Origin: Pseudomonas gingeri
GTDB lineage: Bacteria > Pseudomonadota > Gammaproteobacteria > Pseudomonadales > Pseudomonadaceae
Reading direction: 5' to 3'
Length of the DNA: 64,000 nucleotides
NCBI RefSeq assembly: GCF_013386115.1
Contig: NZ_JACAOR010000008.1
Location: 404,671 to 468,670, forward strand
This document shows, in pieces, positions 39,021 to 50,213 of the stretch. How positions within the stretch are numbered: the stretch's first letter is position 1; each line of letters starts with the position of its first letter. The translations under genes were made by a program, and so were the position numbers. The notes under the pieces were generated by a model that was given only the letters and a program-made list of their open reading frames with translations, did not search any database and was not told the origin of the DNA.

Positions 39021-42000
39021 TCAGTCCCACAAGGTAAAGAAGTCCAGGAAGGAATAATCAGCGCGGCTGTTGGCAACTTCTATGTGGGAAATGGGTCCAT
39101 TAATCACCGGAACAGAGTAGTCTACCCAGTGATGGAGCACGTTAGTCCCCCCCCCAATGGCGTCTCCTCCTTTACATTCACGCTCTACCAATAGCGTCCC
39201 AATTGAGTTATAGAAAAAAACCGTTCCAGTAAAATTGAGATACGTATAGGCAAATCTCACTCTCTGATACCCTCGCTTGAACGTCAGGCGCAAACGTTGT
39301 CTGCCCACATTTCCATCGCTCAAGACGATCGAACGTCCAGACTGCATATCCGGTACCTGGTTGCCTGTGTAATGAACTATCCCGGATTTTCCTCCCGATT
39401 CCGGCAGCAAGGTGATCGTCATCAGCGGGGTGTCCATGCTCTGTCCCGCCGTGATGCTCCGCACGGGCACCGTTTCGAATGTTTCGTAGTAGATTCTGGG
39501 CTGGTTTTGCGTAACCACTATACGATACGGAAAAACCGTTGCATTGGCCTCGACGCTGCTGTGGTCAAAGGTCACCTTGAACGTGGCTGATAGCGAGCTG
39601 GTATCGTGCAATCCTCTCAGGTAACTGGCTGGTACCGGTATTTCCGCGTAGCCGGTGCTGATCCACCCGGAGGAAACCGGAAAGGCTTCCCATAGGGTGT
39701 GATTGTTCGGCAGCCCTCCCAATCTCAACCAGACTTTCTGGCCCACAGCGATCAACGGCCAGGCGAGCAGGCGCATTTTTATGACTCTTCTGACATCGAG
39801 CGTACCTCCGGTCACTTCGACATTGTCCGCATAGAACTTGGGCCTTGGCAGGTCGCTGTCATTGAACCGGGAAACACTGACCTGCAAGGTATCGGAGACT
39901 GTCGTGGCCCCGCCGCGCTCCACGCTGTAGCTCACCTGGCAATCGCCACCGATGGCCGCCGCCACCGCGCTGCTCGGTGCTGTGAAGTCCACCTGGCCCG
40001 AGGTCGAGCCGGGCTTGGGCAGGATGCCTGGCGTACCGATGCCGGGCTTGCCGATCCAATGCACGGTGATATTGTCGCTGGGATACATCGGGCTGTACTC
40101 GACCCGGATCGTGACCACCGGCGGGGAGTCGACATGCAGCGGATTGATCGTCGCGGTATCGGGGCCGGTAATCGTGCTTTCCAGCACCTGGGGCACTGGC
40201 AGGTCCAAGGCACTGCCAACCTTCATGATGAAGGGATGGGAAAACCGCGTCCGCGCGCCGTCGCGAGCGACGGTATAGTACAGGCGCATTGAGCGGTCGA
40301 GGTTGGGCAGGATGTACTCGCGCTTGAGGGTGAAGGGCAGGTCTCGGCCGACCCAAGGCGCCGTCACGGGAAAGCTGAAGGGCGGTGCACTGCCGCCGGG
40401 TGCACTGCCCTCGGCGTGGAGGTTGATGATGTCATTTTCGATGATGTCCACGTTTGCCTTGACCAGCACCCTGGCATCGAAGAGCGATACCTCGGGGTCG
40501 AAGACCTGATCGGGTGGTGGGGCTTCGTTCACCTCCACCGGTGGCAGCGAAGCCTGCGGTTCGCCCACATCGAGCAGCAGATCCTCGGACGGGATTTTAC
40601 CCATCGCGTTTTCCACCCAGTAGTACAGCCGCAAGGTTCCGCCTTCGAGCCTGGCGATATCGCCATTGGGGCCATTCTGCAAACGGAAGACGATGTCGCC
40701 CTCACCGGCGATATCGTAGAGCTCATCGTAGTAGGACTGGCCATTGGCAAAGGTGCCGTCGAGTACCAGGGTGATCCGGTCGAACGGATCCTGGCCCAGA
40801 TACTCCTTGATATTGACGATCAGGAAAGCGATATCCGGCGGTAATACATCGCCGGGCGCACCCTCGACCGTGGGCGCCGGCAGGCCGGTGCCGACCTGGG
40901 TGCCGGTGATATAGACGACCACGCTACGTGACCCACGCTCTGGGGCCGAGGAGCGGATCCGCACATAAGAGACCTGCACCCGCCCCTTGATCAGGGGCAG
41001 GATGTCGCTGTTCTTCCAGGGGATCCGCGCGGTGCGTCCCAGCTCGCTGACGACCACGGTATGCTCGATATACCGGGTGACACGCTGGCCCTCGAATGTT
41101 CGGCCGTTGAGCCTTACCCGAATGGTATCGCCGACGGCAAAGTCCGCCCGGTGAACCGCCACGACGATGGTGGCATCGGCGCCGTCGAGTGCATCGGCAT
41201 CGAGTTCATTGTGCTCGTCTGACTCTTCCACATAAGGCTCGTAGAGCAAGGGCTCGGCCTGATCGTCCAGACGCACTTCAAGTAGCTGCGCCGGTGACCA
41301 GCCATCGGAGTAGTTGCCGACCTCGTCGACCACCTCGTATTCGCAGACGTGCTCGCCGCTGCCGATCTTTTGCCAGTCGCCGGTATTGACCCAGAGGGTG
41401 ATCGGGTCGGTGCTTTCGACTTCGCCCTCGGTGACCCGGTGCTCGATGATATGGCCGCCGATGCTCAGGCGGATGCGGTCACGCACTGCGCGGTTGATGT
41501 CCGGTGCCGGGTTGCTGACCGCCGGGTAGAAATCGATGCGGACCGGGACCGGGGTGATGATGTCGCCTTCGCCGACCCCAAAATCGATCAGGTCCTGGGG
41601 AAAGACCGGCATCGCCAGGTTTTCGTTGTAATAGGTACTGGCGACGGGATTGCGGCCACCGGGGGAGACGGTATCGACCTTGAGACGAAAGCGCGCGGTT
41701 TCATCGGTGTTGCTACTCACCCGGGTCAGGCGAAAGAACACCGGGTCGGCCGGGCCGTCGGGCAAGCGTGCGCGGGGAATGAACAGCGGGATCTGGGCAT
41801 TGTTGGCGGCCTCGATATCGCTGACGGTATGAAAGGCGACCGGAGTGACGGTGTCTCGGCAGAACAGTTCGATGAAGTCGTTTTCGGCCATGGGCCGGTA
41901 GGGCAGCAGGATGCACTGCAGGCCCTTGTCCCGATGGGCATCGAGGGCCGCCCGGTTGATGCCGCCGTCGAAGCCGACCACAGGCGCGGTCTTGTTGGGA

Positions 42001-42137
42001 ATGTAGAGTTCGAGCTCGTTGAAGGGCACGGGGGTGATAGGTTCTGGCTGGCTCAGGTCGAAGGTGCGTGCTTGCGATGGGGCGTTGTCTTGCGATGGAT
42101 CGTGGCTGGGGAGCAGGGGATCAACGTAGTCGTTCAT
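39021..42137 (-). CDS. Gene C: scaffold protein with LWD-type C-terminal tip
   Basis: 1038 residues, not recognised from a characterised family. No signal peptide: it begins MNDYVDPLLPSHDPSQDNAP. Residues 1-879 are a scaffold of about seven Ig-like modules, nearly identical to gene D. Landmarks are GDTIRVRLNGRTFEGQ, an acidic EESDEHNELDADALDGAD stretch, a B-type module (about 650-760: PSDNITVHWIGKPGIGTPG, VDFTAPSSAVAAAIG) and an A-type module (about 762-878: VGQKVWLRLGGLP). After QNQ at 879 comes a 159-residue tip starting YETFETVPVRSITAGQSM and ending FLDFFTLWD. This tip is homologous to the end of gene E, not of D. AGGAACC precedes the ATG, and the dyad lies about 95 bp upstream. Confidence 0.82.
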   Translation of the reverse strand: MNDYVDPLLPSHDPSQDNAPSQARTFDLSQPEPITPVPFNELELYIPNKTAPVVGFDGGINRAALDAHRDKGLQCILLPYRPMAENDFIELFCRDTVTPVAFHTVSDIEAANNAQIPLFIPRARLPDGPADPVFFRLTRVSSNTDETARFRLKVDTVSPGGRNPVASTYYNENLAMPVFPQDLIDFGVGEGDIITPVPVRIDFYPAVSNPAPDINRAVRDRIRLSIGGHIIEHRVTEGEVESTDPITLWVNTGDWQKIGSGEHVCEYEVVDEVGNYSDGWSPAQLLEVRLDDQAEPLLYEPYVEESDEHNELDADALDGADATIVVAVHRADFAVGDTIRVRLNGRTFEGQRVTRYIEHTVVVSELGRTARIPWKNSDILPLIKGRVQVSYVRIRSSAPERGSRSVVVYITGTQVGTGLPAPTVEGAPGDVLPPDIAFLIVNIKEYLGQDPFDRITLVLDGTFANGQSYYDELYDIAGEGDIVFRLQNGPNGDIARLEGGTLRLYYWVENAMGKIPSEDLLLDVGEPQASLPPVEVNEAPPPDQVFDPEVSLFDARVLVKANVDIIENDIINLHAEGSAPGGSAPPFSFPVTAPWVGRDLPFTLKREYILPNLDRSMRLYYTVARDGARTRFSHPFIMKVGSALDLPVPQVLESTITGPDTATINPLHVDSPPVVTIRVEYSPMYPSDNITVHWIGKPGIGTPGILPKPGSTSGQVDFTAPSSAVAAAIGGDCQVSYSVERGGATTVSDTLQVSVSRFNDSDLPRPKFYADNVEVTGGTLDVRRVIKMRLLAWPLIAVGQKVWLRLGGLPNNHTLWEAFPVSSGWISTGYAEIPVPASYLRGLHDTSSLSATFKVTFDHSSVEANATVFPYRIVVTQNQPRIYYETFETVPVRSITAGQSMDTPLMTITLLPESGGKSGIVHYTGNQVPDMQSGRSIVLSDGNVGRQRLRLTFKRGYQRVRFAYTYLNFTGTVFFYNSIGTLLVERECKGGDAIGGGTNVLHHWVDYSVPVINGPISHIEVANSRADYSFLDFFTLWD

Positions 42138-42372: not shown

Positions 42373-45300
42373 TTACTCCCTCATCATTGCACGCAGGCGA
42401 ATGGAAGGGTTGTGCATATTAAACCCCTGGGTTCCCCACTGCATATTCCCGGTAAAGTTGTAATACCGCGGATCGCTATAAGGCGTCGAGGTCCAGTAAG
42501 CTGGCAGCGTGCCGTCATTCACCCAGGTGCCGGGGTAACTGCTAAATAGCGGGCCCCATTCACCCCACAAAGTTCCAACCATTCGGTTGGACGTAGCATT
42601 GGAGAATTGCTGGCTTGAAATCGCATTGGCGGGAACTGCGGTTGTACCGTAAAGCTGGGGTGATGGTCGTACATAAAGTTGTGGCACGGCCAACGTATGT
42701 GTAACGGTTACATTTCTCGCATCCGTGATCGTGAAGGTAATCGATGCGCCAGGTTTGGAATGGACGGTGACTCGCCCCTTGCCATCGATACTCGCGACCG
42801 CTGAATTCGAGGAAGTGAACTTCACGGGTCTGGCTCCGCCGGCAAACCCGATATCGAAAATGGCGCCGGGGAACAGCGTTCTCGGAAAGCCGCTGTTCAG
42901 AGCAAATGTGAAAGGCGCGGGAAGCGGATCGGTACCCCCGTGCGGGCTGGCGACCAGGTTGACCAGGCTCAACGGCAGTGTTGCGATCTTGAAGCGATAG
43001 GGCGGTGACACCTGCGTCTCGCCGAGCGTAATCGCCGTCAGCTCATAATCCCCATCCGCTAGTGCGGTGAGCGAGGTTTCCCAGGTTTTCTGACTGCCAA
43101 CGGACGCTGTGGCAATAACTCCACCACGGTTGCGTATCTGCACCGTCGAGTTTTCACGGCCCGTGCCGTAGACCGTCAGGTTAACGCTGGAGGTGGTGCC
43201 GTTATCAGGTATAACACCCTCGGCGTCGGTGACACGGGTGATGCTCGGCGTTACAGAGGCGATTACGGTGAAAGTCCTGATGTCGGACGACAGCACCCCA
43301 CCGACGACTTTGGCGATGAGGTCGTGTCGTTCGAGGGGCAGGTTGTTGATGTGATCGCTCCAGATTCCAGAAGCATTGACGCTGGTGGTCAAGATAACTG
43401 TCCCACCTCTGCGTACCTCGATGGTGGAGTTGGGCGTCGCGGTCCCGGACAGCGTCAGGCTTCTTTGATCGGTACTGCCATTGTGAGGTACCGAAGCCCC
43501 GGTAGAGGTGTGCACGCCAGTAATCTCCGGTCTCACCTCACGGATGACGGTAAAGGTGCGCGGCGGAGTGGACTCCGGATTGCTGCCATACAGGCCGCGC
43601 GCGGTGATGCTGTAGTCCTTGGCTGTCACCGTCAGCGCGGGTGTGCTCCAGGTTCCGTTGTCGTCAGCGGCGACCGTGCGCAGGACGTCGTTGCCGTCAC
43701 GAATCTGCACCTGCTGTCTATTGGCGGCTGTGCCCGTGAGTGTCATGGTCGTCGTGATCACGCGGGTGCCATTGGTGATCTCGGTGCCGCCGGCATCCTT
43801 GATGGAGGTGATGGTCGGAATGACAGAGAGCTGATTTTGCACGGTCACGGTACGCGATGGGAAAGTCTTGGCATTGGCTTCGACGCTGCTGTGGTCAAGG
43901 GTCACCTTGAAGGTCGCTGTCAGCGAGCTGGTGTCGAGCAGCCCATTCAGGTAACTGGGCGGTACCGGTATTTCCGCAAAACCGTCCCTGACCCAGGCCG
44001 CTGAAACCTCGGCGTCTTCCCAGAGGGTGTAATTGTTCGGCTGCCCCGTCAGCCTCAACCAGACTCTCTGTCCCGCCGCTATCAACGGCCAGGAAGGCAG
44101 GCGCATTTTTATGGTCCTGGTGATATCGAGCGTGCCGCCGGTCACCTCGACATTGTCCGCATAGAACTTGGGTGTTGGCAGGTCGCCTTGATTGAACTCG
44201 GAAACACTGACCTGCAGGATTTGGGACGGGGTCGTGGCACCGCCGCGTTCCACGCTGTAGCTCACCTGGCAACCGCCACCGATGGCCGCCGCCACCGCGC
44301 TGCTCGGGGCCGTGAAGTCGACCTGGCCCGAGGCAAGACCCGGCTTGGGCTCGATGGCCGGTGTGCCGATCCCCGGCTTGCCGATCCAATGCACGGTGAT
44401 GTTGTCGCTGGGGTACATCGGGCTATAGCGCACGCGAATGGTGACCATCGGTGGCGAGTCGACGTGCAGCGGATTGATCGTTGCGGTGTCAGGCCCGGTA
44501 ATGGTGCTTTCCAGAATATGTGGTACGGGCAGCTCCAGCGCACTGCCGACCTTCATGATGAAGGGATGGGAAAAGCGGGGCCGTGCGCCAGCCCGGGCGA
44601 GGGTGTAGTACAGGTGCATCGAGCGGTCCAGGTTGGGCAGGATGTACTCGCGCTTGAGGGTGAAGGGCAGGTCCCGACCGACCCAGGTCGCGGTGACAGG
44701 GAAGACGAATACCGGTGCGCTGCCCCCGGCGACGCTACCCTCGGCGTGGAGGTTGATGATGTCATTTTCGATGATGTCCACGTTCGCCTTGACCAGTACC
44801 CTGGCATCGAACGGCGACACCTCGGGGTCGAAAATGTGATCGGGCGGTGGCGCCTCATCCACCTCTACCGGTGGTAGCGAAGCCTGCGGTTCGCCGACAT
44901 CGAGCAGCAGGTCCTCGGACGGGAATTTACCCATCTCGTTTTCCACCCAGTAGTAGAGACGCAAGGTCCCGCCTTCGAGCCGGGCGATATCGCCATTGGG
45001 ACCGTTTTGCAAGTGGAAGACGATATCGCCGGTGCCGGCGATATCGTCGACTTCCTTGTAGTACGACCGGCCATTGGCATAGGTGCCGTCGAGCACCAGG
45101 GTGACCCGGTCGAAAGGATCCTGGCCCACATATTCCTTGATATGGACGATCAGGAAGGCGATATCCGGCGGCAATACATCGCCGGGCGCGCCCTCGACCG
45201 TGGGCGCCGGCAGGCCGGTGCCGACCTGGGTGCCGGTGATATAGACGATCACGCTGCGCGAACCTCGCTCCAGGGCCGAGGAGCGGATCCGCACATAAGA

Positions 45301-46467
45301 GACCTGCACCCGCCCCTTGATCAGGGGCAGGATGTCGCTGTTCTTCCAGGGGATCCGCGCGGTGCGTCCCAGCTCGCTGGCGACCACGGTATGCTCGATA
45401 TACCGGGTGACACGCTGGCCCTCGAATGTTCGGCCGTTGAGCCTGACCCGGACGATATCGTCGACGGCGAAGTCCGCCCGGTGAAGGGCGACGACAATCG
45501 TCGCGTCGGCGCCCTCGAGGGCATCGGCATCGAGTTCGTTGTGCTCGTCGGATTCCTCCACATAAGGTTCGTACAGCAAAGGCTCGGCCTGATCGTCCAG
45601 ACGCACTTCAAGTAGCTGCGCCGGTGACCAGCCATCGGAGTAGTTGCCGACCTCGTCGACCACCTCGTATTCGCAGACATGTTCGCCGCTGCCGATCTTT
45701 TGCCAGTCACCGGTGTTGACCCGGAGGGTGATCGGGTCGGTGCTTTCGAATTCGCCCTCGGTGACCCGGTGCTCGATGATATAGCCGCCGATGCTCAGGC
45801 GGATGCGGTCACGCACGGCGCGGTTGATATCCGGTGCCGGGGGGCTGATCGCAGGATAAAAATCGATGCGGACCGGTACCGGAACCTCGATATCACCCTC
45901 GCCGACCCCAAAATCGATCAGGTCCTGGGGAAAGACCGGCATGGCCAGGTTTTCGTTGTAGTAGGTGCTGGCGACGGGATTGCGACCGCCTGGGGAGACG
46001 GTATCGACCTTGAGGCGAAAGCGCGCGGTTTCATCGTCGTTGCCACTCACCCGGGTCAGGTGAAAGAACACCGGATCGGCGGGGCCGTCGGGCAGGCGTG
46101 CGCGGGGGATGAACAGTGATATCTGCGCGTTGTTGGCGGCCTCGATATCGCTGACGGTATGAAAGGCCACAGGAGTGACGGTGTCGCGGCAGAACAGTTC
46201 GATGAAGTCGTTTTCGGCCATGGGCCGATAGGGCAGCAGGATGCACTGCAGGCCCCTGTCCCGGTGGGCATCGAGGGCCGCCCGGTTGATGCCGCCGTCG
46301 AAGCCGACCACGGGCGCGGTCATGTTGGGGATGTAGAGTTCGAGCTCGTTGAAGGGCACGGGGGTGATAGGTTCTGGTTGGCTCAGGTCGAAGGTACGTG
46401 CTTGCGATGGAGCGTCGTCTTGCGATGGATCGTCGCTGGGGAGCAGGGGATCAACGTAGTCGTTCAT
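42373..46467 (-). CDS. Gene D: scaffold protein with Ig repeats and invasin-like lectin-type tip
   Basis: 1364 residues. Residues 1-879 duplicate the gene C scaffold with few differences. After the same QNQ junction the ending is entirely different. Three bacterial Ig-like repeats of about 92 residues (at about 880, 972 and 1064) each contain LTLSGTA or LTVYGTG followed by VEVRRGG/VQIRNRG and NGTWS-type turns. A Big_2-like module follows (about 1164-1262; FTSSNSAVASIDGKGRVTV, characteristic of that family). The final 100-residue segment has LWGEWGPLF, YWTSTPYSDPRYYNFT and a basic end, resembling the C-type-lectin-like ends of intimin/invasin-type adhesins. No signal peptide and no membrane anchor are seen. 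The leader, with dyad, matches gene C. Confidence 0.82.
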   Translation of the reverse strand: MNDYVDPLLPSDDPSQDDAPSQARTFDLSQPEPITPVPFNELELYIPNMTAPVVGFDGGINRAALDAHRDRGLQCILLPYRPMAENDFIELFCRDTVTPVAFHTVSDIEAANNAQISLFIPRARLPDGPADPVFFHLTRVSGNDDETARFRLKVDTVSPGGRNPVASTYYNENLAMPVFPQDLIDFGVGEGDIEVPVPVRIDFYPAISPPAPDINRAVRDRIRLSIGGYIIEHRVTEGEFESTDPITLRVNTGDWQKIGSGEHVCEYEVVDEVGNYSDGWSPAQLLEVRLDDQAEPLLYEPYVEESDEHNELDADALEGADATIVVALHRADFAVDDIVRVRLNGRTFEGQRVTRYIEHTVVASELGRTARIPWKNSDILPLIKGRVQVSYVRIRSSALERGSRSVIVYITGTQVGTGLPAPTVEGAPGDVLPPDIAFLIVHIKEYVGQDPFDRVTLVLDGTYANGRSYYKEVDDIAGTGDIVFHLQNGPNGDIARLEGGTLRLYYWVENEMGKFPSEDLLLDVGEPQASLPPVEVDEAPPPDHIFDPEVSPFDARVLVKANVDIIENDIINLHAEGSVAGGSAPVFVFPVTATWVGRDLPFTLKREYILPNLDRSMHLYYTLARAGARPRFSHPFIMKVGSALELPVPHILESTITGPDTATINPLHVDSPPMVTIRVRYSPMYPSDNITVHWIGKPGIGTPAIEPKPGLASGQVDFTAPSSAVAAAIGGGCQVSYSVERGGATTPSQILQVSVSEFNQGDLPTPKFYADNVEVTGGTLDITRTIKMRLPSWPLIAAGQRVWLRLTGQPNNYTLWEDAEVSAAWVRDGFAEIPVPPSYLNGLLDTSSLTATFKVTLDHSSVEANAKTFPSRTVTVQNQLSVIPTITSIKDAGGTEITNGTRVITTTMTLTGTAANRQQVQIRDGNDVLRTVAADDNGTWSTPALTVTAKDYSITARGLYGSNPESTPPRTFTVIREVRPEITGVHTSTGASVPHNGSTDQRSLTLSGTATPNSTIEVRRGGTVILTTSVNASGIWSDHINNLPLERHDLIAKVVGGVLSSDIRTFTVIASVTPSITRVTDAEGVIPDNGTTSSVNLTVYGTGRENSTVQIRNRGGVIATASVGSQKTWETSLTALADGDYELTAITLGETQVSPPYRFKIATLPLSLVNLVASPHGGTDPLPAPFTFALNSGFPRTLFPGAIFDIGFAGGARPVKFTSSNSAVASIDGKGRVTVHSKPGASITFTITDARNVTVTHTLAVPQLYVRPSPQLYGTTAVPANAISSQQFSNATSNRMVGTLWGEWGPLFSSYPGTWVNDGTLPAYWTSTPYSDPRYYNFTGNMQWGTQGFNMHNPSIRLRAMMRE

Positions 46468-46561
46468 GGTCGGGTTCCTGACAAGTCACGGAAGAGGGCG
46501 ACCCGAAAGCCCGGATGGCGAGTCGTAAAGACCATTCAACGTCGGGAGGGAGTGGCTGGCT

Positions 46562-46581
46562 AGCTGTCAGAAATGACAGTG
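46562..46581 (-). promoter_or_regulatory. Lux-box-like dyad, copy 4 (gene D promoter)
   Basis: Identical to copy 3: CACTGTCATTTCTGACAGCT on the minus strand, with TTGAAT at 46539-46534. The gene H terminator lies just upstream of it. Confidence 0.75.
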
Positions 46582-46610
46582 GCGACGAGTGGTCTGTACC
46601 GGTGATTTCA

Positions 46611-46644
46611 AATTGAAAAGGGGAGTCTTATTCCCCTTTCAATT
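46611..46644 (-). terminator. Terminator of gene H
   Basis: AATTGAAAGGGGAA and CTCCCCTTTTCAATT pair on the minus strand (14 bp, minor mismatch), followed by TTTGAAAT, 53 bp past the gene H stop. It insulates the gene D promoter. Confidence 0.75.
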
Positions 46645-46696
46645 CTCTATCGCGGTCGCGTCAAGTGCTTGCCAGGAGGGGCTTTAACCAGATCGT

Positions 46697-46900
46697 TTAT
46701 TCATAGTCCGCGAGGTGGAGGATGATTAAGTAACTGCCATCTTCTTCGAGTTTATGTTCTCTCAAGGTCACCAGCGAGCGTTTTCCTGGAGCTAGCTGGC
46801 CATTGATGACATCTCCTTGGACGGGGACGACTAAAACTTCTGCCTTTGCTTTAAACGCTGTTTTCTTGTTGCCTGCCATTACCACTATTTTAGTTGTCAT
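46697..46900 (-). CDS. Gene H: small 67-residue protein, unknown
   Basis: 67 residues, beginning MTTKIVVMAGNKKTAFKAKA and containing VLVVPVQGDVINGQLAPGK, RSLVTLREHKL and a hydrophobic-acidic end SYLIILHLADYE. Predicted mostly beta; no signal peptide, no recognised family. AGAGG lies 7 nt before the ATG. It has its own copy of the CTGTCA dyad (47097-47116) oriented toward it, with a -10-like TCGAAT, and its own terminator. It is therefore expressed as a separate member of the same regulon. It could be a small regulator, chaperone or single-module partner; undecided. Confidence 0.72.
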   Translation of the reverse strand: MTTKIVVMAGNKKTAFKAKAEVLVVPVQGDVINGQLAPGKRSLVTLREHKLEEDGSYLIILHLADYE

Positions 46901-47096
46901 AAAGACGCCTCTATGAAAAAAGTGATTGAGCCGGATTTGCTTTCACTGAGCGTTTTTTCATCCCTGAAAGTAGCAAGCCTGTTGAAGACTGCGCGTTGCA
47001 CTGCCTCTCTCTGCTGGTACTCGGCGTGTCAGCGAATCAAAGAGGTATTTTCTGAGGCTTGGTGATTCATTCGACACCGAAGTGGCAGGAAGGGCT

Positions 47097-47116
47097 ACCT
47101 GTCAGAAATGACAGTA
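47097..47116 (-). promoter_or_regulatory. Lux-box-like dyad, copy 5 (gene H promoter)
   Basis: TACTGTCATTTCTGACAGGT on the minus strand. Only on this strand does a -10-like hexamer (TCGAAT, 47074-47069) fall at the shared distance of 22 nt, so I assign it to gene H. Confidence 0.7.
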
Positions 47117-47182
47117 TCGACGAATGGTCATTGGAAAAAGAGTGTGAAACCGTTGGTCCACTTTACAGCCTTGCGCGGCTGA

Positions 47183-47202
47183 AACTGTCATTTCTGACAG
47201 TA
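47183..47202 (+). promoter_or_regulatory. Lux-box-like dyad, copy 6 (gene E promoter)
   Basis: AACTGTCATTTCTGACAGTA with -10-like TCAAAT at 47224-47229, 21 nt downstream. Gene E starts 90 bp past the box. The leader is a near-copy of the gene F leader. Confidence 0.75.
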
Positions 47203-47291: not shown

Positions 47292-50213
47292 ATGAAAGAG
47301 CAACCGCTTGCCGAGCTCGACTTGCCCGAAGCCAAATTGCTGGATGCCGATGGCGGGCACCTTGACAGTCTTCTGGTGCCCTTGGACGGCACGCCTGTCG
47401 AAGTCCGATACCCCGATATGCTGCCGACCGACCTGATCCGCTTCTGCTGGCCGGGCCTGTTGCCGGATGAAGAGTTTGCCCCGATAGAGCCTGTGTACGG
47501 GAATGCCGATGGCGTGGTCCAGTTCAGGGTGCCCTATGACTATGTCGGCTATGTCCTGGACATGTATGCCAGTTTTTTCTACACGGTGACCCGCGATGAA
47601 GAGACGTTCAAGTCGCGGGCGGACACGGTCAGGATCACGCGACCGAGCACCTTTCCGCTTCTGCACCTTGTGCCGTTGATCGACAATACCCTGTTCCTGT
47701 CGGCGCTGAGTGACGATCATTTCACGTTGCAGATGGACCCCTGGCCGTTTATCACGTCGGACTGCCGGGTCACGGTGTGGGCGCATGTCGAAAAGCCCGG
47801 CGGTGAAAGAATCAACTTCCGTCTCGTGACACAGGAGCGGGTGACCGCGACGGATATCCGTGTCGGCTGGACTCGCCGGTTTTCCAGTGACGTATACGCC
47901 ACGAGCCCTTCCGGCAGCATACTGTTCTTCGATTTGTTTGCCTCTTTCGGCGGCCAGTCCCACAGCATCCGGTTCCTTCCAGGGATAGCCTTTGTAGGGC
48001 TGAACAAGGACCCCCTGCCTACCCCGGAGGTACCGCAAGCACCGGATGGGCTGTTGGACCTTGAGGTTGTCCGCGGTGACCCACAATGCCGGGTCGCCCG
48101 CTGGCCTTTCGCCCAGACGGGGCAGCCGACCTGGCTGCATGTCATCGGTGAGCTCGATGACGGAAGCTCATTGCGTATCGATGTGTTGCAGGGCGAGCCG
48201 TTTGTTCCCGATGGCGAATTCCAGGGACTGAGCACTCTCTTGCCACGTGGAGCACTGAAACAGCTGCGCGATGGCAGTTACTTGTCTGTGCACTTTGGTG
48301 TCAACAGTCATGGCCCGGCCGATGAGAGTACCGCGATCTGGTTTCCGGAACTGCGGCTCAAGGTGCTTCAGGAAGCCCTCGAACTGATTGCGCCAAGCGT
48401 ACTGCAGGCATCCGGTTCGCTGTTGAATCCGATCAATGCCATCGACGGCGCGACGGTGCGGGTTGCCTATGAGCACATGAGCATCCATCACATCATTCAC
48501 CCTTTCTGGACAGGGCAGCCCGGATTGGGCACACCTGTCTTGGGCTCTGCGTCCGGGAGTCGTGACGGTCATGTCGATTTCCCCGTGCCGCCTTCGGCAG
48601 TGACGGCCAATCTCGGTACCACCGTAGAGGTCGGTTACTTCGTGGAGTACAGGGGGCAGACACTCCCGTCACCCGAGTTGTCCCTGCAGATCATGGCCCT
48701 GGCAGGGTTGCCGACTCCCGCGGTGAGCCAGGCCACCCTTGACGTATTGGATCTCAACACGTTCGAAGGCGATATCGAGTGCACGGTGGAGCCTTGGGAC
48801 TTCATTGCCCGGGACCAACCCTGCTGGCTGTGGATCACGGGAGAATTGGAGGATGGTTCTCCCCATGTTCTCGAGGTGCTTGAGGGCGAACCCCTGCCGG
48901 CCGAAGGCGTGGTGCAAGGAGTGGTTGCGGGAGTGTTGCGGCACGAACTGGAGAAACTGGCGGATTGCAGCACGCTGACGGTGTATTTCGCGGTCAACTT
49001 CGATGGTCGCTCGGACAAGTCGTCGGCAGTCGTTTTTCCGCTGCTGGAGCTGCACCTTGTGCAAGAGAACCTGACGTTGCACGAGCCCTCGGTGCTGGAG
49101 GCGGTAGGCTCGACGCTGACACCGTTCAATGCACAGGACGGGGCCACCGTACGGGTGGAGTATGAGCGGATGAATGCTCGGCAGAGCATCCAGGTCCGCT
49201 GGCAACGTCCCGATGGCAGTTTTGTGCCGATTGACGCCCAGGACGGCAACAGTGATCCGGGTCATGTCGATTTCCATGTACCACGCGAAGCAGTGATTGC
49301 CGGAATGGGCAAGACCGTCCCCGTCAGTTATTCGGTGACCAGCCCGTGCAAGAATGCCACCTCGCCCTTGCTCCGGTTGAACATCCTGCTGCCCACGCGC
49401 CTGCCTGCGCCGGTGGTACGACAGGCGACCGGAGGCGTTCTGGATCTGCGGACTTTTGTTGGCAATGCCGATATCACGGTTGAAAAATGGTGGTTCATCC
49501 TGGCCGGGCAGAAGTGCTGGTTGCGTGGGGTCGGGACTTTGCAAAATGGCAGTAACTACACCTTCACGGTCATCAATGGCGCGGCCGTGACGTTGGATGA
49601 GGTGGGCAAGGGGCTGCACAGGATCTTGCAGCGGACGGTTCTCGACTCATTGAAAAATCAAAGCGAGCTGACCTTTACCTGCAAGGTCACCGCCGATGGC
49701 AGCACTCAGGAAAGCCAGGCGATCAGCTTTGTGCCGCTGACGTTGAAGGTGCTCAGGGCGGTCATCGACTACGAAAGATTCGAGACGGTCCCCTTGAAGA
49801 AGATCACGGCGGGGCAAAGCATCGAGGCGCCGACGATGACGGTTACCTTGTTGCCCGACTCTCGGGGAGAGGCCGGTATAATCCAATACACCGACAACAA
49901 CAATCCGGACATGGTCTCCGGGCACTCGCTCGCCATGAGCATTGCAAACTCGGGAACACAGCGTGCGCGCCTGGCGCTCAAGCTGGAGTACCTGCGGGTC
50001 AGATTTTCCTTCATGTACCTCAATCTGTCCGCGACGATCTTTTTCTATAACAAACAGGGGCGGCTCCTGGAAGAGCGTGCTCTCACAGGAGGAGGAACGG
50101 GGGTCATCAATTATTGGGTCGACTACTCTGCGCCCGTGGGTGAACGCATTGCCTCCGTGGAAGTGGTCAGTAACGATTACATCATCATGGACTTCTTTAC
50201 CCTGTGGGGCTGA
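47292..50213 (+). CDS. Gene E: alternating-module scaffold with LWG-type tip
   Basis: 973 residues, no signal peptide (MKEQPLAELDLPEAKLLDAD). The scaffold alternates two Ig-like modules. The A type starts LPTPxVxQAxxxxLDL, with CTVEPWDFI and CWLWITGELEDGS, at about 243, 472 and 703. The B type starts PSVLEAxGSxLxPxNA, with DGATVRVxYExM and GHVDFxVP, at about 362 and 593. Divergent B- and A-like modules fill 1-240. The tip (about 823-973) starts YERFETVPLKKITAGQSI and ends IMDFFTLWG. It matches the gene C tip and resembles beta-sandwich lectin-type domains (YLRVRFSFMYLNLSATIFFY). AGGAG lies 8 nt before the ATG. An upstream in-frame start is rejected because gene F lacks that sequence similarity. 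Confidence 0.82.
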   Translation: MKEQPLAELDLPEAKLLDADGGHLDSLLVPLDGTPVEVRYPDMLPTDLIRFCWPGLLPDEEFAPIEPVYGNADGVVQFRVPYDYVGYVLDMYASFFYTVTRDEETFKSRADTVRITRPSTFPLLHLVPLIDNTLFLSALSDDHFTLQMDPWPFITSDCRVTVWAHVEKPGGERINFRLVTQERVTATDIRVGWTRRFSSDVYATSPSGSILFFDLFASFGGQSHSIRFLPGIAFVGLNKDPLPTPEVPQAPDGLLDLEVVRGDPQCRVARWPFAQTGQPTWLHVIGELDDGSSLRIDVLQGEPFVPDGEFQGLSTLLPRGALKQLRDGSYLSVHFGVNSHGPADESTAIWFPELRLKVLQEALELIAPSVLQASGSLLNPINAIDGATVRVAYEHMSIHHIIHPFWTGQPGLGTPVLGSASGSRDGHVDFPVPPSAVTANLGTTVEVGYFVEYRGQTLPSPELSLQIMALAGLPTPAVSQATLDVLDLNTFEGDIECTVEPWDFIARDQPCWLWITGELEDGSPHVLEVLEGEPLPAEGVVQGVVAGVLRHELEKLADCSTLTVYFAVNFDGRSDKSSAVVFPLLELHLVQENLTLHEPSVLEAVGSTLTPFNAQDGATVRVEYERMNARQSIQVRWQRPDGSFVPIDAQDGNSDPGHVDFHVPREAVIAGMGKTVPVSYSVTSPCKNATSPLLRLNILLPTRLPAPVVRQATGGVLDLRTFVGNADITVEKWWFILAGQKCWLRGVGTLQNGSNYTFTVINGAAVTLDEVGKGLHRILQRTVLDSLKNQSELTFTCKVTADGSTQESQAISFVPLTLKVLRAVIDYERFETVPLKKITAGQSIEAPTMTVTLLPDSRGEAGIIQYTDNNNPDMVSGHSLAMSIANSGTQRARLALKLEYLRVRFSFMYLNLSATIFFYNKQGRLLEERALTGGGTGVINYWVDYSAPVGERIASVEVVSNDYIIMDFFTLWG

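Follow-up and report, generated by a model that had tools for sequence, protein, structure and literature searches.

Organization of the D–H–E locus

Within the window, i.e. the whole stretch of 64,000 nt that was analysed, the genes D and E are divergently oriented and separated by a gap of 824 nt. This gap holds three perfect copies of the dyad CTGTCAN4TGACAG, starting at positions 46564, 47099 and 47185 and belonging to D, to a 67-codon gene termed H and to E, respectively. D and H share the minus strand, with D being the downstream gene. The features of the locus are as follows.

42373..46467, minus strand: gene D, 1364 aa, with bacterial Ig-like domains (Big_6, Big_13)
46564..46579, minus strand: perfect dyad of gene D
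46610..46645, minus strand: terminator-like hairpin after H with a 14-pair stem, between H and the promoter of D
46697..46900, minus strand: gene H, 67-aa open reading frame (ORF), GC content 0.46
46901..47062, minus strand: putative 5′ leader of H, about 160 nt, start site predicted from the −10 element
46908..46912, minus strand: Shine-Dalgarno-like AGAGG of H, 7 nt before the ATG, as read from the sequence
47069..47074, minus strand: −10-like TCGAAT of H, 24 nt from the dyad
47099..47114, minus strand: operator dyad CTGTCATTTCTGACAG of the H promoter, a perfect CTGTCAN4TGACAG
47118..47129, minus strand: element GACCATTCGTCG upstream of the dyad of H, matching GACCACTCGTCG at D
47185..47200, plus strand: perfect dyad of gene E
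47292..50213, plus strand: gene E, about 973 aa, divergent neighbour of H

H and E stand back to back, as the dyad of E is only 86 nt (start to start) away from that of H. A preliminary description had placed a 67-residue gene with dyad, TCGAAT and ribosome-binding site in this divergent gap, all of which are indeed seen in the sequence, although part of the interval it gave to H, 47185–47200, is E's own dyad.

A 37-nt block around the dyad of D (46558–46594) is repeated at 47093–47129 with 89% identity, while the similarity between the promoters of H and D drops beyond it, with 50 of 90 nt being identical when aligned on the dyad. The segment between these two dyads has a GC content of 0.48, as compared to 0.61 for D and 0.59 for E. 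Hence, the lineage probably acquired H as an AT-rich cassette, which is flanked by two near-copies of a 37-nt promoter core; both the low GC content and the flanking repeat fit a recent gain. By eye, D and the gene C (39021–42137) are arranged in tandem with near-identical N-terminal parts, each with its own dyad, and a third C/D-like gene elsewhere in the genome (L079:3771-7922) is likewise equipped with a dyad of its own.

Coding capacity of H

The start codon of H (ATG, 46900–46898) lies in an open frame spanning 81 codons, in which no in-frame ATG, GTG or TTG is found further upstream. The predicted protein shows no signal peptide apparent by eye and no domain match in Pfam, NCBIfam or PHROGs, and single-sequence prediction (66 of 67 residues, pLDDT 44.8) did not give a usable structure. 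By itself, the length of the ORF is within chance and no evidence of a gene: when the 519-nt segment is shuffled with its dinucleotides preserved, 453 of 2000 sequences contain an ATG-initiated ORF of at least 67 aa. When a Shine-Dalgarno sequence is demanded in addition, only 40 of 2000 shuffles contain such an ORF.

Codon usage is the stronger coding evidence and fits that of the AT-rich genes of the regulon. With a model trained on 11 of the latter, H's frame is the sole one among the six frames to score positive, and its value is matched or exceeded by merely 2 of 4000 composition-matched stop-free null sequences. The score of 0.08 compares with values between 0.07 and 0.20 in four related small genes that had not been used for training. 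When codon usage is modelled on the high-GC genes of the genome, on the other hand, H's frame is not favoured (−0.27), an antisense frame being slightly better and the best of six (−0.24). With all coding evidence combined, H is probably a real gene.

The competing reading of an untranslated ORF, where the dyad promoter would yield a regulatory or by-product RNA ending at the hairpin and the frame would have arisen by chance, draws on the frequency of equally long ORFs in shuffled sequence, on H being an orphan (see below) and on the hairpin, which is very stable (z −4.5, with 1 of 200 shuffles being as good). Against it stand the codon score and the rarity of Shine-Dalgarno-backed ORFs among the shuffles as well as the leader itself, which is not unusually folded (z 0.46 for 46898–47075) and lacks any Rfam match up to an E value of 1. 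A structured leader or known RNA at H was rejected on these two results, and an untranslated ORF is altogether an unlikely explanation.

The hairpin had been put forward as the terminator of H. A stable hairpin located 3′ of the stop codon stands, whereas the terminator scan called a site at 46610–46645 on the plus strand only. With one site found, this plus-strand call is not significant, as shuffled sequences contain 1.3 sites on average.

A family of small proteins encoded behind the dyad

Five genes encoding proteins of 66–68 aa were found behind exact dyads in three genomes: A (L071), A′ (G306, L087), A″ (G037, L141), N (G306, L109) and B (L070). The positions of A and A′ are as follows.

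L071:3131-3334, plus strand: gene A, member of the ~67-aa family
L087:1504-1701, plus strand: gene A′, member of the ~67-aa family

When searched alone, gene A is detected in 2 of 398 genomes of the genus; searches of plasmids with gene A and of viral contigs with gene B returned no matches. The profile of all five members hits 77 of the 398 genomes at E ≤ 1, noise included. Inspection of the 30 best loci, comprising three seeds and 27 further ones (L151–L177), revealed an intact frame with a mid-sequence Gly-Asp motif in every one of the latter. The exact dyad was not present in the flanks examined at these 27 loci, but 25 of them bear a half-site TTTC[TC]GACAG 115–135 nt before the ATG, a count made on interrelated loci and without a shuffled control.

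The family proteins have a length of 63–69 aa. No Pfam match was obtained for A, L151 and L172, and of these three only L151 has an NCBIfam match, far below the cut-off, while gene B gives one sub-threshold Pfam match (YqbF, E 0.0098). The structural model of the family consists of one helix, preceding Gly-Asp, and three strands (pLDDT 82). Its best alignments are to KOW/SH3-like barrels such as domain I of EF-P (Z 3.8, rmsd 2.7 over 44 residues). This likeness, which concerns the family model rather than H, has a low Z and a best Foldseek E value of 0.77, and implies no function. Accordingly, a strong fold match for the family model was not found, and the best hit of the family profile in a PDB sequence search has an E value of 0.064. 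By eye, the leaders in L071, L087, L151, L163 and L176 show an inverted repeat resembling CCTGAAA...CTTTCAGG, which encloses GGA and might represent a post-transcriptional control element.

H possibly belongs to this family as a strongly diverged member, for which the sequence comparisons are only suggestive. It is of family length (67 aa) and has the upstream operator, albeit with its dyad 198 nt before the ATG as compared to 93–138 nt in the five related small genes. Against the family profile A2, H scores 3.8 bits, a value attained by 16 of 5000 shuffles and surpassed by 36 of 5430 small open frames, a total that includes some duplicates; of these 36, 26 belong to the family and 10 do not. 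With hhalign, a local P value of 0.004 is accompanied by a probability of only 8%. Earlier profiles gave mixed results, with shuffles scoring at least as high as H in 8 of 2000 cases when built from five members, 622 of 2000 from four and 200 of 2000 from three. In the comparisons with the relatives that first suggested the kinship, global scores were reached by 2 and 1 of 1000 shuffles and local scores by 16 and 25 of 1000, values that are biased upward because the relatives had been picked by eye. H aligns with the family over the full length, its GDVI being opposite the family's GDTI. However, while the A2 family members have a helix before Gly-Asp in their model, H does not give a confident model (pLDDT 44.8, as stated above).

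Conservation of H and its relation to E

At E ≤ 0.01, H matches just one of the 398 genus genomes, namely its own, and no homologue was found in the other 397. E, in contrast, matches 183 of 398 genomes drawn likewise (E ≤ 1e-10), many of these matches being only partial due to the repetitive nature of the protein. Searching a collection of genome contigs for H homologues gave one short doubtful match (L002, 24 residues at 54%). Among phages, no credible homologue is present (22 records at E ≤ 10, the 20 listed all with E ≥ 4), and the same applies to viral contigs and plasmids. Looser searches produced matches in 18 of 95 relatives (E ≤ 1) and 23 of 232 genus genomes (E ≤ 0.5), consisting of H itself and weak hits, most of which lie within longer frames; the genomes shown from the latter search are already among the 398, with seemingly none being new. 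With no credible homologue in the collections searched, conservation cannot serve as evidence on H.

Divergent gaps between D-family and E-family genes do occur elsewhere. In G037 and G394, the gap measures about 0.25 kb and H is absent; in both genomes, the E-family gene resembles E2, the second copy, more closely. In G306, a gap of the D–E type of about 1.4 kb contains another ORF instead, up to 376 codons long (L035:9815-10945), and hence such gaps seem to accept different genes. The expectation that the frame would be conserved beside E homologues was thus not borne out in the related clusters examined (G037, G394 and G306). Rather than refuting the gene, this absence makes H a lineage-specific member of the regulon, and H missing at E-like loci elsewhere indicates that the E cluster does not always include it.

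These findings bear directly on the idea, already raised in the preliminary description, that E has in H a dedicated partner, chaperone or local regulator, kept back to back with it for production in fixed proportion. The short distance of 86 nt between the divergent dyads would suit this arrangement, as would gene B of the same genome (66 aa, L070:9887-10351), which is divergent from a gene for a 1977-aa RHS-repeat protein, the two dyads being separated by 110 nt in an arrangement like that of H and E. Nevertheless, the occurrence of E in 183 of 398 genomes, even if often partial, against H in one speaks against a dedicated partnership. Moreover, the small-protein profile matches none of ten E-family loci elsewhere (L033–L042), the family gene A′ adjoins in L087 an upstream gene that by eye is threonine-aldolase-like, not an E gene, and H has no recognised domain. 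Considering its absence at E-family loci elsewhere, a role as partner of E is rejected as the main reading and appears distinctly improbable.

The CTGTCAN4TGACAG operator and the promoter of H

The 7.35-Mb genome contains 35 exact copies of CTGTCAN4TGACAG, eight of them located within the window, whereas a reversed-pattern control does not occur at all. In four other genomes of the genus, 19, 17, 22 and 10 exact dyads were counted (0, 1, 0 and 0 for the controls). At H, the dyad is followed by TCGAAT at a spacing of 24 nt, identical to that between dyad and TTGAAT at genes C and D, although the −10 element is only weakly conserved across the full set of dyad sites. Sequences similar to GACCATTCGTCG are also found at some other dyad sites. 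Scanning the D–E gap for a sigma-70 consensus promoter did not give a hit.

For evaluating the direction of transcription, 30 of the 35 genomic dyads were given a target gene and an orientation by eye from ORF positions. Left out of the promoter model were H, three sites with unassigned targets (L072:3113, L076:3403 and L078:4006) and one intragenic site (L082:3539). The matrix was built from the flanks of 26 sites, excluding the dyad itself; four sites of the C/D type were kept out of it, yet scored with it. In the leave-one-out test, the assigned orientation outscores the opposite one at 29 of the 30 sites, with means of 4.78 and −13.78, respectively. The model is nevertheless loose, since 10 of the 30 assigned promoters, among them all four of the C/D type, have a negative score even in the correct orientation.

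With H held out, this directional model yields a score of 13.06 toward H and −8.04 toward E, and only 1 of 5000 random windows scores at least as high as H. A promoter of regulon type, with the exact operator and the spacing of C and D, thus points toward H, corroborating the earlier suggestion of a regulon promoter of its own, back to back with E. The alternative that the dyad at 47099 is a second, tandem operator of E, for which its position just 86 nt upstream of E's dyad could be adduced, is rejected as highly improbable on the orientation score and on the success of the assigned orientation at 29 of 30 other sites.

Proposed role of H and the search for the regulator

H is, on balance, likely a genuine lineage-specific single-gene member of the CTGTCAN4TGACAG regulon encoding a co-induced small cytoplasmic accessory protein. 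A dimeric activator would bind to the dyad, the centre of which is near −44 from the predicted start site (class II position), and, when occupying the dyads of both H and E, would turn on the two genes together. Transcription of H would stop at the hairpin ahead of D's promoter. The gene product would be a small soluble protein of the cytoplasm, made alongside the large Ig-like and RHS-repeat proteins of the regulon and serving an accessory role other than that of E's dedicated partner.

Small orphan genes brought under the control of a regulon, as H would be, are an ordinary kind of case. A far broader proposal is an undescribed genus-wide regulon having tiny, unannotated and fast-evolving cytoplasmic proteins as recurrent output, with H as the extreme, and recruiting promoter-bearing small-gene cassettes, as here between two genes for giant proteins; at present, this generalization is doubtful. 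Annotation pipelines tend to lose genes this small, orphans above all, and a repeated operator can flag real small genes that are invisible to conservation. In the present case, it exposed a family of ~67-aa proteins for which no Pfam or NCBIfam model was found.

The operator also marks a set of genes, encoding Ig-like giants, an RHS-repeat protein, a ricin-type lectin and an autotransporter, that can be used in searching for the regulator. A description of CTGTCAN4TGACAG as operator was not found among the open-access papers listed, where exact-string matches concern human genes according to their titles. In class II activation by LuxR-type regulators, a CT-N12-AG operator is placed near −42.5. 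The operator of H resembles such a lux box in being a CT-N12-AG inverted repeat with its centre near −44 from the predicted start site, whereas its letters presumably differ from those of the las, rhl and phz boxes. The genome encodes three Autoind_bind proteins as candidates, and the loci examined for these contain no dyad closer than three mismatches. PprB was set aside as regulator, as its binding site, given as GGCTAATAC in an excerpt of a previous study (PMC6821963), is different; the part of another article considered here does not state a PprB consensus (PMC3510237).

Among the neighbours of the dyads (L068–L085 and the window) are the Ig-like giants, the RHS-repeat protein, and the ricin-type lectin together with a related protein. 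Further dyad neighbours are a type II/IV secretion ATPase, the autotransporter, a thioredoxin-like protein, a glycosyltransferase and several small AT-rich genes without assigned function.
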